From Planotetraspora phitsanulokensis (lineage in GTDB: Bacteria > Actinomycetota > Actinomycetes > Streptosporangiales > Streptosporangiaceae), in assembly GCF_016863295.1 (NCBI RefSeq), contig NZ_BOOP01000013.1, forward strand, positions 186,001 through 250,000: a stretch of 64,000 nt of DNA. The letters run 5' to 3'. The position numbers were made by a program, and so were the translations under genes. Below the pieces are notes generated by a model. The model was not told where the DNA came from. It made no database searches and saw only the letters and a list, made by a program, of their open reading frames with translations. Below, in pieces: positions 1 to 8,686 of the stretch; within the stretch, counting starts at the first letter, position 1, and every line of letters starts with the position of its first letter.

Positions 1-845
1 GCGGCGATGGAGAGCCTGCGCAGGTTGTCGCGGGAGCCGGGCGCGAACCTCATGAGCAGGTTGACGGTGTCGACCTCGGCTCCCGCCTCGCCGGTGGCGC
101 GCAACATCTCCGCGTGTGCGGGCAGCAGGCCGTCCTCGGTCACGGGGAGGGTGAAGGTGACGCCGAGCGGGCGCCCCGCGTCCTGCGCCTCGTGCTGAAG
201 GATCGCGATGACCACGGCCCGGCGCTCGATGGTCGCGGGGTCACCCGGATCGTCGAGCTCGAAGTCGATCGCGACGGGCTCGAAGGCGTCGATCATGCGC
301 TGGTAGGCCGCGGTCAGGCGGGTCCGGCTCGGGCAGGCGGCGGAAAGCTCCGGTCCGTACGGCCCGCCGAACGCCAGCCCCGCGTCCCCGCCCTGCGCTC
401 GCAGCCGGTCGATGCTGTCGGCGACCTGGTCGTCCCTCTCGACCGTGCCGTCCCAGGTGGGGGTGCACCCGTCGATTCCCGCGGTGAGATGGCCGACCGT
501 GTACCAGACGATCCCGGTGCGCCGGGCGTTCGCCGCCAGGTCGAACCGCGGGCTCCGGGCGGCGTCCACGAATCCCATGTAGCCCGAAGGGCGGCTGGTG
601 TGCGTCCGCTGCGGCGGAAGGCCGCCGGGCGGCTGCGCCGTCGGCCGTCCCGGATCGACCGCCAGGGGCGGCTGCGCCGCGACTGGCGATCTCGTGGGCC
701 CCTCCGCCGTGCCCCAGTCGGCGCGCATCTGCGCGGGAAGCAGCCAGAGGGCGACCCCGGTGGTCGTGACCAGTGCGACCGCGCCCAGCATCACCAGGAA
801 ACGAGGCGGGTTCCCCACCTCGCGGGTATGCCGTGCCGAATCCAC
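1..845 (-). CDS. GH18 (chitinase-like) membrane-anchored protein, C-terminus cut by window edge
   Basis: The frame is open from a GTG at 845 to base 1, so the C-terminus lies outside the window. A GAGGG ribosome site sits 9 bases before this GTG; another GTG at 818 is in frame but less well placed. A short cytoplasmic start is followed by one membrane segment (about residues 14-35), a Pro/Thr-rich linker, then a GH18-like TIM-barrel beginning SGYMGFVDAAR. The family hydrolyses chitin or related beta-1,4 glycans outside the cell. Odd: the strand normally reading DxxDxDxE appears here as VAIDFELDD, with acid positions shifted, so catalysis is uncertain. The gene is divergent from the oxidoreductase at 939. 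Confidence 0.6.
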   Translation of the reverse strand, partial: MDSARHTREVGNPPRFLVMLGAVALVTTTGVALWLLPAQMRADWGTAEGPTRSPVAAQPPLAVDPGRPTAQPPGGLPPQRTHTSRPSGYMGFVDAARSPRFDLAANARRTGIVWYTVGHLTAGIDGCTPTWDGTVERDDQVADSIDRLRAQGGDAGLAFGGPYGPELSAACPSRTRLTAAYQRMIDAFEPVAIDFELDDPGDPATIERRAVVIAILQHEAQDAGRPLGVTFTLPVTEDGLLPAHAEMLRATGEAGAEVDTVNLLMRFAPGSRDNLRRLSIA

Positions 846-1919: not shown

Positions 1920-3491
1920 GTGCTCCTCACCATCTCGACGACCATGTCGCCGGCCACAGACCTGGGCTTCCTCCTGCACAAACATCCGGACCGCGTTCAG
2001 GAGTTCGGCCAGTCGTTCGGCATGGCCCGCGTCCTGTATCCGGAGGCGGGCGAGCACCGGTGCACGGCCGCGCTGCTGCTGGAGGTCGACCCGATCCGGC
2101 TCGTCCGATCCCGCGGCAAGTCGTCGCCCGACTTCTCGCTCGGGCAGTACGTCAACGACCGGCCGTACGCCGCGTCGTCGCTGCTCGCGGTCGCCCTGGC
2201 CGATGTGTTCCGCACGGCGAGGACCGGGCGCTGCGCCGCCCGGCAGAAGCTCGCCGACGGGCCGATCCCGCTGGAGCTCGGACTGCCCGCACTGCCGTGC
2301 AGGGGCGGCGCCGACCTCGCGCGCCGGCTGTTCGAGCCCCTCGGCTGGCAGGTGGAGGCCACCGCCGTCCCACTCGATGAGAACTTCCCGGAATGGGGCG
2401 ACTCGCGCTACGTCCGGCTGACGCTGCGCGGCGAGGTGCGCCTGGCCGACGCGCTCAACCACCTGTACGTGCTGCTTCCCGTGCTGGACGACGCCAAGCA
2501 CTACTGGATCGCGGGCGACGAGGTGGACAAGCTGATCCGGGCGGGCGGCGGCTGGCTGGGCGCGCATCCGGAGCGGATGCTGATCACGCGCCGTTATCTC
2601 GGCCGCCGCTGGGCGCTGGCCCGGACGGCCTTCGCCCGCCTGGCCGAGATCGGCGACGACGTCGAGGAGTCGCTGGAGCCGCCCGCCGAGGAGGAGGTCG
2701 CGGACGCGCCGCACGACGCCGACGCCGACGCCGACGCCGGCAGCGACGCCGACACCGGCAGCGGCACCGACAGCGAGACCGGCAGCGACACCGACAGCGG
2801 TGACGCGGCCGCGGCCGGCGACGCCGCCGAGGAGGCTCAGGCGGCCGAGCCCCGTACGCCGCTGAACACCCTGCGGCGTGACGCGGTCGTGTCGGCGCTG
2901 GAGGAGATCGGCGCCCGTTCCGTCATCGACCTCGGCTGCGGTTCGGGGCAGCTGGTGTCGGCGCTGCTGAGCCGCCCGTCGTTCGCCAAGGTCACCGGGG
3001 TGGACGTGTCGGCGCGGGTGCTCGCCATGGCCGCGCGCAAGCTCAGGCTGGAGCGCATGCCGGACGCCAAGCGGGCACGGGTGGAGCTGTTCCAGGGGTC
3101 GCTGACGTACACGGACGACCGGTTCGCGGGACATGACGCGGCGGTGCTGATGGAGGTCGTCGAGCACGTCGACCCGCCGAGGCTCCCCGCTCTCGAGCGG
3201 GTGGTCTTCGGCGTGGCCAGGCCGCGCCATGTCGTCGTGACCACGCCGAACGTCGAGTACAACGTCAGGTACGAAGGCCTGACGGATCCGGAGGCGGGTC
3301 CCTCGCGGATGCGTCATCCGGACCACAGGTTCGAGTGGACCAGGGCCGAGTTCGCCGCGTGGGCGGCCGGCGTCTGCGACGCGTACGGCTACGAGGCGGC
3401 CTTCAGACCGGTGGGGGAGGACGACCCCGAGGTGGGCCCGCCGACCCAGATGGCCGTCTTCCGCCTCCCCGCCCAGCCCTCCTCGGCATGA
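1920..3491 (+). CDS. hen1: 3' terminal RNA ribose 2'-O-methyltransferase Hen1
   Basis: Bacterial Hen1 of 523 residues, GTG start. It methylates the 2'-OH of the 3'-terminal ribose of a cut RNA before Pnkp seals it, which protects the repaired site from being cut again. The N-terminal half (about 1-245) is the Hen1-N domain that supports ligase activation. The C-terminal half is the methyltransferase: SAM motif VIDLGCGSG at residues 335-343 and the metal-binding EVVEHVD at 412-418 with HPDH near 466-469. Between them is an unusual Asp/Ala/Ser/Thr linker (about residues 258-305) encoded by near-repeats of GACGCCGACGCC. The next gene is pnkp, the usual partner. Function is well supported by the pairing. 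Confidence 0.95.
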   Translation: MLLTISTTMSPATDLGFLLHKHPDRVQEFGQSFGMARVLYPEAGEHRCTAALLLEVDPIRLVRSRGKSSPDFSLGQYVNDRPYAASSLLAVALADVFRTARTGRCAARQKLADGPIPLELGLPALPCRGGADLARRLFEPLGWQVEATAVPLDENFPEWGDSRYVRLTLRGEVRLADALNHLYVLLPVLDDAKHYWIAGDEVDKLIRAGGGWLGAHPERMLITRRYLGRRWALARTAFARLAEIGDDVEESLEPPAEEEVADAPHDADADADAGSDADTGSGTDSETGSDTDSGDAAAAGDAAEEAQAAEPRTPLNTLRRDAVVSALEEIGARSVIDLGCGSGQLVSALLSRPSFAKVTGVDVSARVLAMAARKLRLERMPDAKRARVELFQGSLTYTDDRFAGHDAAVLMEVVEHVDPPRLPALERVVFGVARPRHVVVTTPNVEYNVRYEGLTDPEAGPSRMRHPDHRFEWTRAEFAAWAAGVCDAYGYEAAFRPVGEDDPEVGPPTQMAVFRLPAQPSSA

Positions 3492-3552
3492 TCATGCGCG
3501 GAATCGGATGTGGCGGACGCATGCACTACGGATTACGGAAGAGGCGGTCGTG

Positions 3553-6033
3553 ATGGAGATCAGTGTTCCGCGGATGGCGCTGGTGCTGCTCGTGGGTATC
3601 TCGGGCAGCGGGAAGTCGACCTTCGCCGCCAGGCACTTCGCGCCCACGCAGGTCATCTCCTCGGACTACTGCCGTGGCCTGGTCTCCGACGACGAGAACG
3701 ACCAGTCGGCGACCCCCGACGCGTTCGACGTCCTCCACTACATCGTGGGCACCCGGCTGAGGCGCGGCCTGCTGACGGTCGTCGACGCCACCAACGTCCA
3801 GTGGGAGGCGCGCAAGCAGCTGATCGAGCTGGCCAAGAGCCATGACGTGCTGGTCGACGCGATCGTGCTCGACGTCCCCGAGGAGGTGGCGATCGCCCGC
3901 AACGCCACCAGGCTCGACCGGGCGTTCGGCCCGCACGTGATCACCCGTCAGAGGAAGGACCTGCGCCGTTCGCTCGGCAAGATCAGCAGGGACGGCTTCC
4001 GCCGGGTTCACGTGCTGCGGGGCGAGGAGATCGACGGCGCCGTCGTCACCTACGAGAAGGCGTGGTCGGACCGTACCGAGCTCACCGGCCCCTTCGACCT
4101 CATCGGCGACGTTCACGGCTGCCGTTCCGAGCTGGAGACCCTGCTGCGGACCCTCGGCTGGACGGTGACGCCCACGGGCGCCGTCCACCCCGAAGGCCGT
4201 ACGGCCGTGTTCGTCGGCGACCTGGTGGACCGCGGCCCCGACACCCCGGGCGTGCTGCGGCTGGTCATGGGCATGGTCGAGGCGGGAACGGCGCTGTGCG
4301 TCTCCGGCAACCACGAGCAGAAACTCGTCCGCGCGCTCAACGGGCGCAAGGTCAGGGTCGCCCACGGACTGGAGGAGTCGCTGACCCAGCTCGCCGCGGA
4401 GCCTGAGGAGTTCAGGGACGCCGCGAAGGCGTTCATGGACGGCCTCATCAGCCACTACCGGCTCGACGGTGGCGCGCTCGTCGTCGCGCACGCCGGCCTC
4501 AAGGAGGCCTACCACGGGCGTGCGTCCGGCCGGGTGCGCGCGTTCGCGCTCTACGGCGACACGACGGGCGAGACCGACGAGTACGGCCTGCCGGTCCGTT
4601 ACCCGTGGGCGAACGAGTACCGGGGACGCGCGATGGTCGTCTACGGCCACACGCCGACCACGGAGCCCGAGTGGGTCAACAACACGATCTGCCTGGACAC
4701 GGGAGCCGTGTTCGGCGGCAGCCTGACCGCGCTCCGCTACCCCGAACGGCAGATCGTCTCGGTTCCGGCGGAGAAGGTCTGGTACGAGCCGGTCAGGCCG
4801 CTCACGTCCCAGTACTCCCGCGACCCCGGCGTCCTCGACATCGGCGACGTGACGGGCACGCGGTACGTGGAGACCAGGTACGGCGGACGGATCAAGATCG
4901 CGCAGGAGAACTCGGCGGCGGCTCTGGAGATCATGAGCCGTTTCTCCGTGGATCCCCGCTGGCTGGTGTACCTCCCGCCGACCATGGCGCCGCCGGAGAC
5001 CTCGTCGCTCGACGGTTTCCTCGAGCACCCGGATCAGGCGTTCGAGGAGTACGCCAGGGCGGGCGTGTCCCGGGTCGTGTGCGAGGAGAAGCACATGGGT
5101 TCGCGGGCGATAGCCGTGCTGGCCAGGACCCCCGACGCCGCGGCCAAGCGGTTCGGCGTCACGGACGGCACGACCGGCAGCGTCTACACCCGCACCGGGC
5201 GGCCGTTCTTCGACGCCCTCGGCGGGGAACTCGTCGACCGGCTCCGTGACGCGGTGAGCCCGCTCTGGGACGAGCTGGGAACCGACTGGGTGGTGCTCGA
5301 CTGCGAGTTGCTGCCCTGGTCGGCGAAGGCCGAGGGACTGATCCGCGACCAGTACGCCTCCGTCGGCGCCGCGGCGGGGGCCGCCCTGCCCGAGGCGCTG
5401 GCGCTGCTCGAGACGGCGGCCGGGCGCGGCCTGGATGTAGGCGGCCTGGTCGACCGCACCCGACGCCGTCTGGACAACGCTGCCCTGTTTCGCGACGCAT
5501 ATGCCCGATACTGCTGGCCGGTTTCCGGCCTCGACGGCGTACGGCTCGCGCCGTTCCAGATCCTCGCCTGTGAGGGTCGCGCGACGGCCGTGCTCGAACC
5601 GCATTCGTGGCACCTGGACGTGCTCGGGCGCCTGGACTCCGGCATCCTCGCGCCGACCCGGCACGTGTACGTGTCGCTGGACTCGGAGGAGGAACGGGCG
5701 GCCGCGGTCGACTGGTGGTCGGCGCTGACCGCCGCCGGGGGAGAGGGCATGGTCGTCAAGCCCGTCGAGCACACGCCCGGCCGGGTGCAGCCGGGGATCA
5801 AGGTGCGCGGGCGGGAGTACCTGCGCATCATCTACGGCCCGGACTACACGGAGTCGCTCGGCGAGCTGCGCGGACGTTTCCTCGGCAGGAAGCGGTCGCT
5901 GGCGTCGCGCGAGCACGCGCTCGGCCTGGAGGCGCTCACCAGCCTCGCTGAGGGCGACCCCCTGTGGCGCGTGCACGAGATGGTGTTCGCCGTGCTCGCG
6001 CTGGAGTCCGAGCCGGTCGACCCTCGGCTGTGA
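3553..6033 (+). CDS. pnkp: Polynucleotide kinase-phosphatase-ligase Pnkp
   Basis: Three-domain RNA repair enzyme of 826 residues, the full family length. The kinase domain carries the P-loop GISGSGKST at 15-23. The metallophosphatase domain shows GDVHG (185-189), GDLVDRG (222-228) and GNHE (252-255). The C-terminal ligase/adenylyltransferase domain has EEKHMGSRA with Lys 513 as predicted nucleophile, then DCELLPW and EGMVVKP. It heals 5'-OH and 2',3'-cyclic phosphate ends and, with Hen1, seals them. ATG 3553 is preceded by GAGG 8 bases upstream; GTG 3550 is the alternative. It follows hen1 by 61 bases. No tRNA-cleaving toxin gene is adjacent. Confidence 0.96.
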   Translation: MEISVPRMALVLLVGISGSGKSTFAARHFAPTQVISSDYCRGLVSDDENDQSATPDAFDVLHYIVGTRLRRGLLTVVDATNVQWEARKQLIELAKSHDVLVDAIVLDVPEEVAIARNATRLDRAFGPHVITRQRKDLRRSLGKISRDGFRRVHVLRGEEIDGAVVTYEKAWSDRTELTGPFDLIGDVHGCRSELETLLRTLGWTVTPTGAVHPEGRTAVFVGDLVDRGPDTPGVLRLVMGMVEAGTALCVSGNHEQKLVRALNGRKVRVAHGLEESLTQLAAEPEEFRDAAKAFMDGLISHYRLDGGALVVAHAGLKEAYHGRASGRVRAFALYGDTTGETDEYGLPVRYPWANEYRGRAMVVYGHTPTTEPEWVNNTICLDTGAVFGGSLTALRYPERQIVSVPAEKVWYEPVRPLTSQYSRDPGVLDIGDVTGTRYVETRYGGRIKIAQENSAAALEIMSRFSVDPRWLVYLPPTMAPPETSSLDGFLEHPDQAFEEYARAGVSRVVCEEKHMGSRAIAVLARTPDAAAKRFGVTDGTTGSVYTRTGRPFFDALGGELVDRLRDAVSPLWDELGTDWVVLDCELLPWSAKAEGLIRDQYASVGAAAGAALPEALALLETAAGRGLDVGGLVDRTRRRLDNAALFRDAYARYCWPVSGLDGVRLAPFQILACEGRATAVLEPHSWHLDVLGRLDSGILAPTRHVYVSLDSEEERAAAVDWWSALTAAGGEGMVVKPVEHTPGRVQPGIKVRGREYLRIIYGPDYTESLGELRGRFLGRKRSLASREHALGLEALTSLAEGDPLWRVHEMVFAVLALESEPVDPRL

Positions 6034-7352: not shown

Positions 7353-7478
7353 TCAGTTCCCAGTGGAGTTGCTGCACACGGTCGTCTCCGTCGTGTCCAG
7401 CCTTCTGATCAGGATCTTCGTGATGGCCTGCCGCTCGGTCCGCTCGTCCGGCTCGGGCTCTGCCTCGGTCGGGTGCAT
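7353..7478 (-). CDS. Candidate RiPP precursor peptide (41 residues, C-terminal Asn)
   Basis: A small gene with an ATG at 7478 and a clear GGAGGG ribosome site 5 bases ahead. It starts MHPTEAEPEPDERTERQ and ends TTETTVCSNSTGN. The first half is charged and acidic like a leader peptide, followed by AITKILIRRLD; the last 13 residues are Thr/Ser/Asn-rich with one Cys, like a core peptide. It lies 104 bases downstream of an E1-like enzyme that has a PqqD-like N-terminal domain of the type that binds leaders. The C-terminal residue is Asn, as in microcin C precursor MRTGNAN, whose Asn is adenylated by a ThiF-family enzyme. Seen: gene, ribosome site, composition, neighbours. Inferred: that it is modified. 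I do not recognise it as a named family. Confidence 0.6.
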   Translation of the reverse strand: MHPTEAEPEPDERTERQAITKILIRRLDTTETTVCSNSTGN

Positions 7479-7582: not shown

Positions 7583-8686
7583 TCACGCGGTCAGGCCGGA
7601 GGGCGCGCACACGGGGCAGCCCGGGCGCGGCGGGTGGCGGACCCATACGTGGTGTTCGGGGGCGATGAGGTTCAGTCCCTGGAGCGTTCCCGCCGTGGGT
7701 TGGGGGACCCCGGTGATCAGGGAGATCACGGCGTGCGCGACCAGTTGCCCGGAGATGCCGGCCGATATGGCCATCACCCCTGGTCCGCCGAGGTCCGCGG
7801 GAAGGCCGGGCCGCCGCCTGCGCGCCTCGCCCTCGATGAGGCACTCGTAGCAGGCACCGCGGCCGCGTTCGAACGTTCCCACGGTCACCAGCGGGCCGTT
7901 GTAGCCGCCGCCGACCCAGGGCACGCCCGAGTCCGCGCAGACGCGGTTGGCCCAGACGCTGATCCCCTCGGCCAGGCCGCACCCCCTCGGCTCGTCGGCG
8001 CACAGCGCGAGCACGTCGCAGTCCTCGACGAGGCGCCGCAGGTCCGCCTCGCCGTCCACCCTGCGGCTCTCACCGGTGATCTCGATGTCGGAGTTCAGCC
8101 GGCGCAGCCTCTCCACCGCGATGTCGACCTTCATGCGGCCGATGTCCTCCTCGCTGTAGAGGACCTGCCGGTTCAGGTTCGACAACTCCACCACGTCGGC
8201 GTCGACGCAGTGGATGCGCCCGACTCCGGTCGCCGCGAGGGCCCACGCGGCGTGGCTGCCGGTGCCGCCGAGCCCGAGGACGACGACGCGGGCCTTCTTC
8301 AGGCGCACCTGCGCCTCCCAGGCGTGCGGGCGGGGAGTCAGGTCCACGAGGTGGAAGAACGCCTGGCTCCTCCCGTACCGGTCGCGCTCCCGCGCGCTGA
8401 TCTCCTCGGGCACCTGGGCGGACGCGTCCTCCACGTAGCCCGAGTCGATCAGTGTGCCCACGATCTCCCGCGCCTCGGGCGCCGAGACGCCGGGCACCGA
8501 GCGGCAGATCGTTTCGGCGATGTCGTCGGGCGTCCGCGTGCCGTCCATCAGGGTCAGCGCGGCCCACGCGCCCCCGAGGGGATCGGTGATCTCCGAGGCG
8601 AGCCCGTAGATCTCGCCCCCGATGCGCACCGTGCCGTCGTCGAGCCTGTGCGGCTCGTGCCTGCTCTTGACGCGTGGCAGCAGCAC
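7583..8686 (-). CDS. E1-like (ThiF/MoeB/HesA) adenylyltransferase with PqqD-like N-terminal domain
   Basis: A 367-residue protein. Residues 1-90 look like a PqqD-like RiPP recognition element (helix with TPDDIAETICRSVPG then EAREIVGTLIDSGYVE). The rest is an E1-like fold: ATP-binding GLGGTGS at 138-144, DADVVELSNLNRQ at 162-174, Lys 186, and two Cys pairs (279/282 and 357/360) of the family's zinc site. Such enzymes adenylate the C-terminus of a protein or peptide; MccB acts on a peptide ending in Asn. Here the next gene encodes a small peptide ending in Asn. Start GTG 8686 has GAGGGGG about 10 bases upstream. Downstream order is peptide then DUF6879. RiPP role is inference; ubiquitin-like activation is the alternative. 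Confidence 0.82.
   Translation of the reverse strand: MLLPRVKSRHEPHRLDDGTVRIGGEIYGLASEITDPLGGAWAALTLMDGTRTPDDIAETICRSVPGVSAPEAREIVGTLIDSGYVEDASAQVPEEISARERDRYGRSQAFFHLVDLTPRPHAWEAQVRLKKARVVVLGLGGTGSHAAWALAATGVGRIHCVDADVVELSNLNRQVLYSEEDIGRMKVDIAVERLRRLNSDIEITGESRRVDGEADLRRLVEDCDVLALCADEPRGCGLAEGISVWANRVCADSGVPWVGGGYNGPLVTVGTFERGRGACYECLIEGEARRRRPGLPADLGGPGVMAISAGISGQLVAHAVISLITGVPQPTAGTLQGLNLIAPEHHVWVRHPPRPGCPVCAPSGLTA

Follow-up and report, generated by a model that had tools for sequence, protein, structure and literature searches.

A conserved ETT-motif peptide, encoded beside an MccB/PaaA-type E1-like enzyme in Planotetraspora, looks like one member of a large actinobacterial family of RiPP precursor/enzyme pairs

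Genomes encode ThiF-like RiPP enzymes in large numbers, but few have been studied at the bench. In the pantocin A system, the core motif of the precursor PaaP is Glu-Glu-Asn. One survey counts 27,400 RRE-ThiF candidates (PMC12150305), and the available sections of that paper and of a second one describe carboxylate adenylation as the step these enzymes share, whereas the attacking groups vary and include a side-chain amide, a thiol, an indole nitrogen and the backbone (PMC12150305; PMC12250964). The precursors found in a survey of MccB homologues all end in Asn, which is needed for the N-P bond; they are mostly seven residues long (7 or 8), with a small second group of 17-56 residues, as given in the available part of the survey (PMC6495379). 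MccB still adenylates a substrate with Gly in place of Asn, and thiols can capture the adenylate, according to the accessible portion of a further study (PMC13255007). Three other RRE-ThiF systems offer points of comparison. The indolylamide RiPP pair IndA/IndF combines an RRE-ThiF enzyme with a short precursor and an M16 metalloprotease; the cut core begins EDTT and the ring uses a Trp near the C-terminus (PMC12150305). In enterofaecin, the RRE-ThiF enzyme EnfB needs the leader motif (V/I)RKA of EnfA, whose core carries a WIVI-type hydrophobic motif (PMC12250964). In the GRC thiolactone system GrcA/GrcB, an RRE-ThiF enzyme acts on a 39-aa precursor with a C-terminal Cys as ring partner, accompanied by radical SAM partners (PMC12250964).

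The locus described here lies in the window, by which we mean the whole 64-kb stretch of Planotetraspora phitsanulokensis DNA that was analysed. A peptide ORF sits between a ThiF-like gene 104 nt upstream and a DUF6879 gene 107 nt downstream, all three on the same strand (Table 1). The arrangement resembles microcin C MccA/MccB in the RRE-E1 fusion beside a small peptide gene, in a fold match over about the full length, and in the Asn that ends the window peptide and most peptides of its clade, but the window peptide is far from a heptapeptide, carries a conserved internal motif, and belongs to a family in which the terminal Asn is not generally kept. Pantocin A PaaA/PaaP also has an RRE-E1 enzyme, and PaaA is the best single-sequence PDB match, but the window peptide lacks the Glu-Glu-Asn stretch. 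The EDTT start of the cut Ind core comes near the ETT seen here, whereas the window peptide has no Trp and the protease encoded near many relatives is M50-like instead of M16. The enterofaecin leader motif resembles the IRxL found here, whereas S/N/G-rich tails are common in place of a hydrophobic core. As for the GRC thiolactone, a Cys ends only 1/110 family peptides, and the window peptide ends in Asn.

Table 1. Features of the peptide-enzyme locus, in window coordinates
Feature	Position	Strand	Basis or proposed role
Precursor-like peptide, 41 aa, MHPTEAEPEPDERTERQAITKILIRRLDTTETTVCSNSTGN*	7353..7478	-	Translation of the window
Conserved motif ILIRRLDTTET, residues 22-32	7383..7415	-	Probable recognition strand for the enzyme N-terminal domain (putative docking)
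Variable tail TVCSNSTGN, residues 33-41, C-terminal Asn41	7356..7382	-	Probable core (putative role)
ThiF/E1-like enzyme, 367 aa, GTG start	7583..8686	-	Pfam, PDB matches, alignment, AlphaFold, Foldseek
Enzyme domains: predicted RRE-like N-terminal, ~residues 1-88; E1 adenylating, ~95-363			
Enzyme zinc cysteines: C279, C282, C357, C360			
DUF6879 protein, 204 aa	6631..7245	-	Sole PF21806 match in the window genome; predicted phospholipase-D-like fold

The 41-residue ORF is confirmed as real and exactly placed. A Shine-Dalgarno-like purine-rich stretch, CGGAGGGCGAGG, lies immediately 5' of its ATG, and at E <= 0.001 the peptide has a single match in the window genome. The ORF, with ETTVCSNSTGN unchanged, is kept in 4/4 same-genus genomes searched, and this ORF is the only one in the whole window to score with a motif model derived from relatives; together these observations argue that it is more than a chance reading frame. 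Among the five genus copies, each pair that includes the window copy differs at 2-4 synonymous and 5-8 changed codons, too few differences to show any coding bias. A search of Pfam and NCBIfam with 11 family peptides returned no family above cut-off, and two chance Pfam matches below it.

The neighbouring enzyme is assigned to ThiF by Pfam (E 2e-44), with a weak match to PqqD (E 0.19). The closest solved relative by single-sequence search is PaaA (3.5e-29, residues 4-228, the N-terminal domain included), followed by MccB; a profile of 48 sequences places MccB first (E 1e-50) and PaaA close behind. The AlphaFold model (pLDDT 93.3) begins with strands followed by three helices, as expected of an RRE. 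Foldseek lists MccB in the top rows (E 5.9e-25) and PaaA at E 1.9e-23, with the MccB alignments running over approximately the full length of the protein. Residues G138, G140, G141, G143, D164, R173, Q174, K186 and D231 are invariant in the 48 aligned sequences, the window's included; in the same alignment three of the zinc cysteines are invariant and the fourth is kept at >= 90%. The sequence-only reading had described a peptide ending SNSTGN next to a ThiF homologue with intact ATP and zinc motifs, and this description holds in each part, from the exact translation to the alignment. Between the two zinc motifs of the window protein there is no Cys to take the part of the catalytic Cys in ThiF. 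The closest named relatives of the protein are those of Planotetraspora kaengkrachanensis (94% identical) and P. silvatica (92%). Overall, sequence and modelled structure support an E1-like RiPP enzyme of the MccB/PaaA kind, with an RRE-like domain fused to an E1 domain that retains the conserved ATP site; the N-terminal assignment is a prediction from the modelled fold. An E1 enzyme with an N-terminal peptide clamp or RRE, as in microcin C, is thus indicated by sequence, predicted fold and fold match alike. Some ThiF-like proteins do no more than present a peptide to a second enzyme, for instance a YcaO cyclodehydratase, as the available part of one paper describes (PMC12150305), but such a role is very improbable here: the window genome gives 0 YcaO matches, against matches in 5/14 control genomes, and the ATP-site residues are invariant.

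To examine the pairing across the family, a weight matrix was trained on 80 loci around enzyme homologues from same-family genomes, among the matches listed, and was then applied to this set together with the window and to a second set, the best 80 loci of at least 581 enzyme relatives, which overlaps the training set in part, by genomes. A short ORF with the motif [IVL]x[IV]RxL[DE][KR]xET(T) and a short tail was found at 144/161 enzyme loci, comprising 78/81 in the training set (window included) and 66/80 in the second set, against 0 matches in a reversed-sequence control of 1.35 Mb at the same cut-off. The motif ORF may lie upstream or downstream of the enzyme and on either strand. Among 110 distinct peptides, the motif Leu is present in 110/110, the Glu in 107/110 and the Arg in 106/110, residues that the matrix itself favours. 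Family peptides in Streptomyces include IEIRPLDKKETTGDSGGNGGS. Plasmids also carry these genes: eight records contain an enzyme match, and the motif peptide is present in 2/3 plasmid loci examined, the third, from Sporosarcina, being without it. The peptide, the class of the enzyme, its conserved active site and the family-wide pairing are computational results. The sequence evidence of a motif peptide at 144/161 loci, with a short precursor of conserved leader and variable core beside the enzyme, makes the window peptide the likely substrate of the adjoining enzyme, and the ETT peptide/E1 pairs look like a large RiPP precursor/enzyme family across Actinobacteria. A regulatory function, or an origin by chance, with no tie to the enzyme is a reading that only the small size of the peptide favours, and it is scarcely credible given the count at enzyme loci, the empty reversed control and the recurrence on plasmids.

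Several loci depart from the simple one-to-one arrangement. At 17/161 enzyme loci no motif peptide scored above cut-off; L176, L181, L184, L185, L187, L191, L167 and L214, from Amycolatopsis, Saccharothrix and relatives, represent an enzyme branch without a motif peptide above cut-off in the flanks examined, and the substrates of this branch may be of a different kind. The Sporosarcina plasmid locus (L222) has a short ORF with MKIRKLSNKQVSKTAVEPR at 3845-3920, just 5' of its ThiF gene, in which IRKL recalls the leader motif. In one actinobacterium (L220, ~3093-3260), three tandem precursor ORFs with differing tails lie beside one enzyme. At L121, L122, L123 and L221 each enzyme is accompanied by two or three precursors that share the motif, contain Cys and differ from one another, e.g. 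ETTAGCGRCES and ETTGVCQDCNYA.

The C-terminal residue bears most directly on what the enzyme may do. The last residue in the 110 distinct peptides is N in 43, G in 24, A in 14, S in 12, T in 10, Q in 2, E in 2, and M, C and D in one each; 103/110 therefore close with N, G, A, S or T and 0/110 with F, W, Y, I, L, V, R, K, H or P, a pattern to be expected were a small, flexible C-terminus to enter the E1 site. All three of S, N and G occur in the tails of 81/110. Within the window enzyme's clade (70 rows), Asn ends 39/54 distinct peptides and other residues end 15/54; outside it, Asn ends 4/56 and other residues 52/56. Switches between Asn and non-Asn endings number at least 9 on an enzyme tree built by a quick method, with 129 labelled rows of 146 and weak support for 43/143 inner branches, whereas 200 shuffles of the labels never gave fewer than 32, so that the Asn ending is an inherited habit of the clade and not random. 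Differing endings nonetheless occur beside similar enzymes. A Microbispora enzyme 75.5% identical to the window's adjoins a peptide that ends SQGNST, and at a greater distance lies another that ends SNSTGN; another enzyme, 73.3% identical to the window's, adjoins a peptide ending NQSEA; and a peptide ending SNSTGA sits beside an enzyme 76.3% identical to the enzyme of an SNSTGN peptide.

These data set the terms for a microcin C-like reaction, in which the enzyme would first form a succinimide at Asn41 and then attach AMP there through an N-P bond, if not family-wide then in the clade with Asn endings. MccB tops the fold matches and the Asn ending is inherited on the enzyme tree, but the precursors of MccB homologues are reported, in the available part of the survey, as all Asn-ended (PMC6495379), a rule this family breaks inside the clade and far more often outside it. 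The SNSTGA peptide is a natural variant lacking the Asn, and 41 residues is far above the usual seven, though inside the range of the small second group. We therefore regard this reaction as quite unlikely. The sequence-only reading had raised it, asking whether homologous peptides all end in Asn and counting unrelated C-terminal residues against the idea. Its enzyme class and its likely substrate stand, as does Asn as the usual ending of the clade, but Asn is not the rule of the family, and unrelated endings occur beside enzymes 73-76% identical. At this locus Asn41 could thus carry AMP or form a succinimide, but, given the varied C-terminal residues, this is unlikely as the general reaction of the family. 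The likeness of TGN to the microcin C peptide MRTGNAN, which the same reading had allowed might be chance, carries no weight by itself and was rejected, as relatives read SNSVGN, SNSYGN, SSGNSN, SQGNST and so on. By analogy, the enzyme probably works like an MccB-type activator, yet the locus is probably not a microcin C system by present evidence. Microcin C systems have a dedicated exporter and genes for self-immunity; a Pfam search of seven genes around the present locus places an MFS gene on the opposite strand at a distance of 2.1 kb and names none as immunity.

We propose instead a minimal RiPP-type pair, an account to which we give about an even chance of being right, and whose leader docking, C-terminal adenylation, nucleophile and maturation we infer. 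The RRE-like N-terminal domain of the enzyme would grip the conserved strand ILIRRLDTTET, and the E1 domain would adenylate the peptide's C-terminal carboxylate, here that of Asn41. A nucleophile would then capture the activated C-terminus, most likely a hydroxyl from the conserved Thr-Thr pair that immediately follows Glu31, which would yield a macrolactone with loss of 18 Da. Leader removal would come later, in many relatives perhaps through a site-2-type metalloprotease encoded nearby, and here through another protease. A Ser or Thr occupies the last motif and/or first tail position in 109/110 peptides, and in seven peptides the rest of the tail is free of S, T and C; the exception to the pair, at L101, has neither at the pair and a Ser further along. 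If ring closure is general, the Thr pair would be the simplest common nucleophile. Moreover, since MccB adenylates a Gly-ended substrate, the Gly-ended members of the family are good candidates for adenylation followed by other chemistry.

The activated acid could also be a side chain. The motif Glu is nearly as conserved as the Thr pair, in 107/110 peptides found with a search motif that itself favours E, so that Glu31, in place of the C-terminus, could be adenylated and cross-linked within the tail, in the manner of GRC or pantocin. In the GRC system the side chain of an internal Glu is linked by GrcB to the Cys at the C-terminus, as the available part of its description states (PMC12250964), and PaaA leads the single-sequence PDB matches. 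Three distinct peptides have no Glu, however (two have Gly and one Gln), and so narrow a choice of final residues suggests that the C-terminus itself is used, which makes activation of Glu31 unlikely.

The genes that accompany the pair elsewhere were counted by tblastn on 146 non-redundant loci; gene calls followed a crude GC3 heuristic, and the counts are lower bounds because the flanks are short. A gene for an M50-like membrane protein is present at >= 85/146 loci, leaving up to 61/146 without one within the flanks. All 62/62 gene-called M50-like proteins contain HExxH; in Pfam, M50 lies below cut-off in 3/3 tested, and PqqD appears weakly in 1/3. A homologue is annotated as a site-2 protease in a Nocardia plasmid and as hypothetical in a Streptomyces plasmid. 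The M50-like query has no match in the window genome or in 3/4 congeners, and matches in G206, G101 and the fourth congener, G001. An M14 carboxypeptidase-like gene occurs at >= 27/146 loci (one such protein was tested against Pfam), and at L175, L189, L195, L196, L209, L213 and L215 there are two, one on each side of the enzyme. At the window locus tblastn found neither an M50-like nor an M14 gene; of these three partner genes it has only that for DUF6879, which occurs at >= 45/146 loci.

This neighbourhood leaves room for a pearlin-like scheme, in which the peptide would serve as a carrier and an amine, a thiol or a small molecule from outside would be attached to its adenylated C-terminus. 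In pearlin pathways, modified C-terminal residues are set free by M50 proteases, as described in the accessible sections of one paper (PMC10885120), the M14 carboxypeptidase-like genes near the enzyme are compatible with such a scheme, and in seven peptides, e.g. ETTGLREGG, the tail beyond the Thr pair has no S, T or C. Against this, the tails vary widely in sequence and length and some loci hold several precursors per enzyme, which fits cores better than a fixed carrier, and the neighbour clusters, judged by eye, showed no recurrent gene recognisable as that of a conjugation partner. Conjugation to an external partner is, on this evidence, rather doubtful. A ubiquitin-like role was considered separately and rejected: the peptide has 41 residues, and visual inspection of the recurrent neighbour clusters turned up neither an E2 nor a JAB gene.

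The predicted structure of the DUF6879 protein matches phospholipase-D-like folds with Z about 10. HKD is the catalytic pattern of phospholipase-D enzymes. The candidate catalytic His, H154, is kept in 19/27 sequences, and a Gly stands at the Lys position of the pattern (HxGxRRxTD); the HKD is at most degenerate, and a working phospholipase-D enzyme was rejected. TrmB-type domains also match, and these structural matches suggest that a binding role is possible. No mention of DUF6879 was found in the literature searched. Elsewhere in the window, 1920-6033 (+) encodes the bacterial RNA repair pair, in which a Hen1-type RNA methyltransferase (Hen1_L) precedes a polynucleotide kinase-phosphatase-ligase (Pnkp).

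No published description of the peptide family was recognised among the titles and abstract openings listed, although a supplementary figure of RRE-ThiF clusters in PMC12150305 may include these enzymes. In their available parts, PMC7794033 yielded nothing on ThiF/E1-like adenylation, M50 or M14, and PMC7470986, PMC12710340 and PMC7136475 yielded nothing on an ETT-peptide family; literature searches by motif strings returned noise only. We tentatively suggest, with somewhat more doubt than confidence, that this is an unrecognised and widespread actinobacterial RiPP family, extending from Streptosporangiaceae to Streptomyces, Micromonospora, Nocardia and Glycomyces, and that its members share a reaction so far without precedent among ThiF-like enzymes, in which an ester would link the Thr pair to the C-terminus to form a ring, with permissive tails that end in N, G, S, A or T.

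These data carry a caution, in that a C-terminal Asn beside a ThiF gene does not by itself mean microcin C. They also assign to one large branch of actinobacterial RRE-ThiF enzymes a family of substrates that has a conserved motif and variable tails, S/N/G-rich or Cys-containing, with two or three precursors per enzyme at some loci. An anonymous enzyme group thereby becomes a set of directly testable enzyme-substrate pairs, in organisms prized for their natural products.
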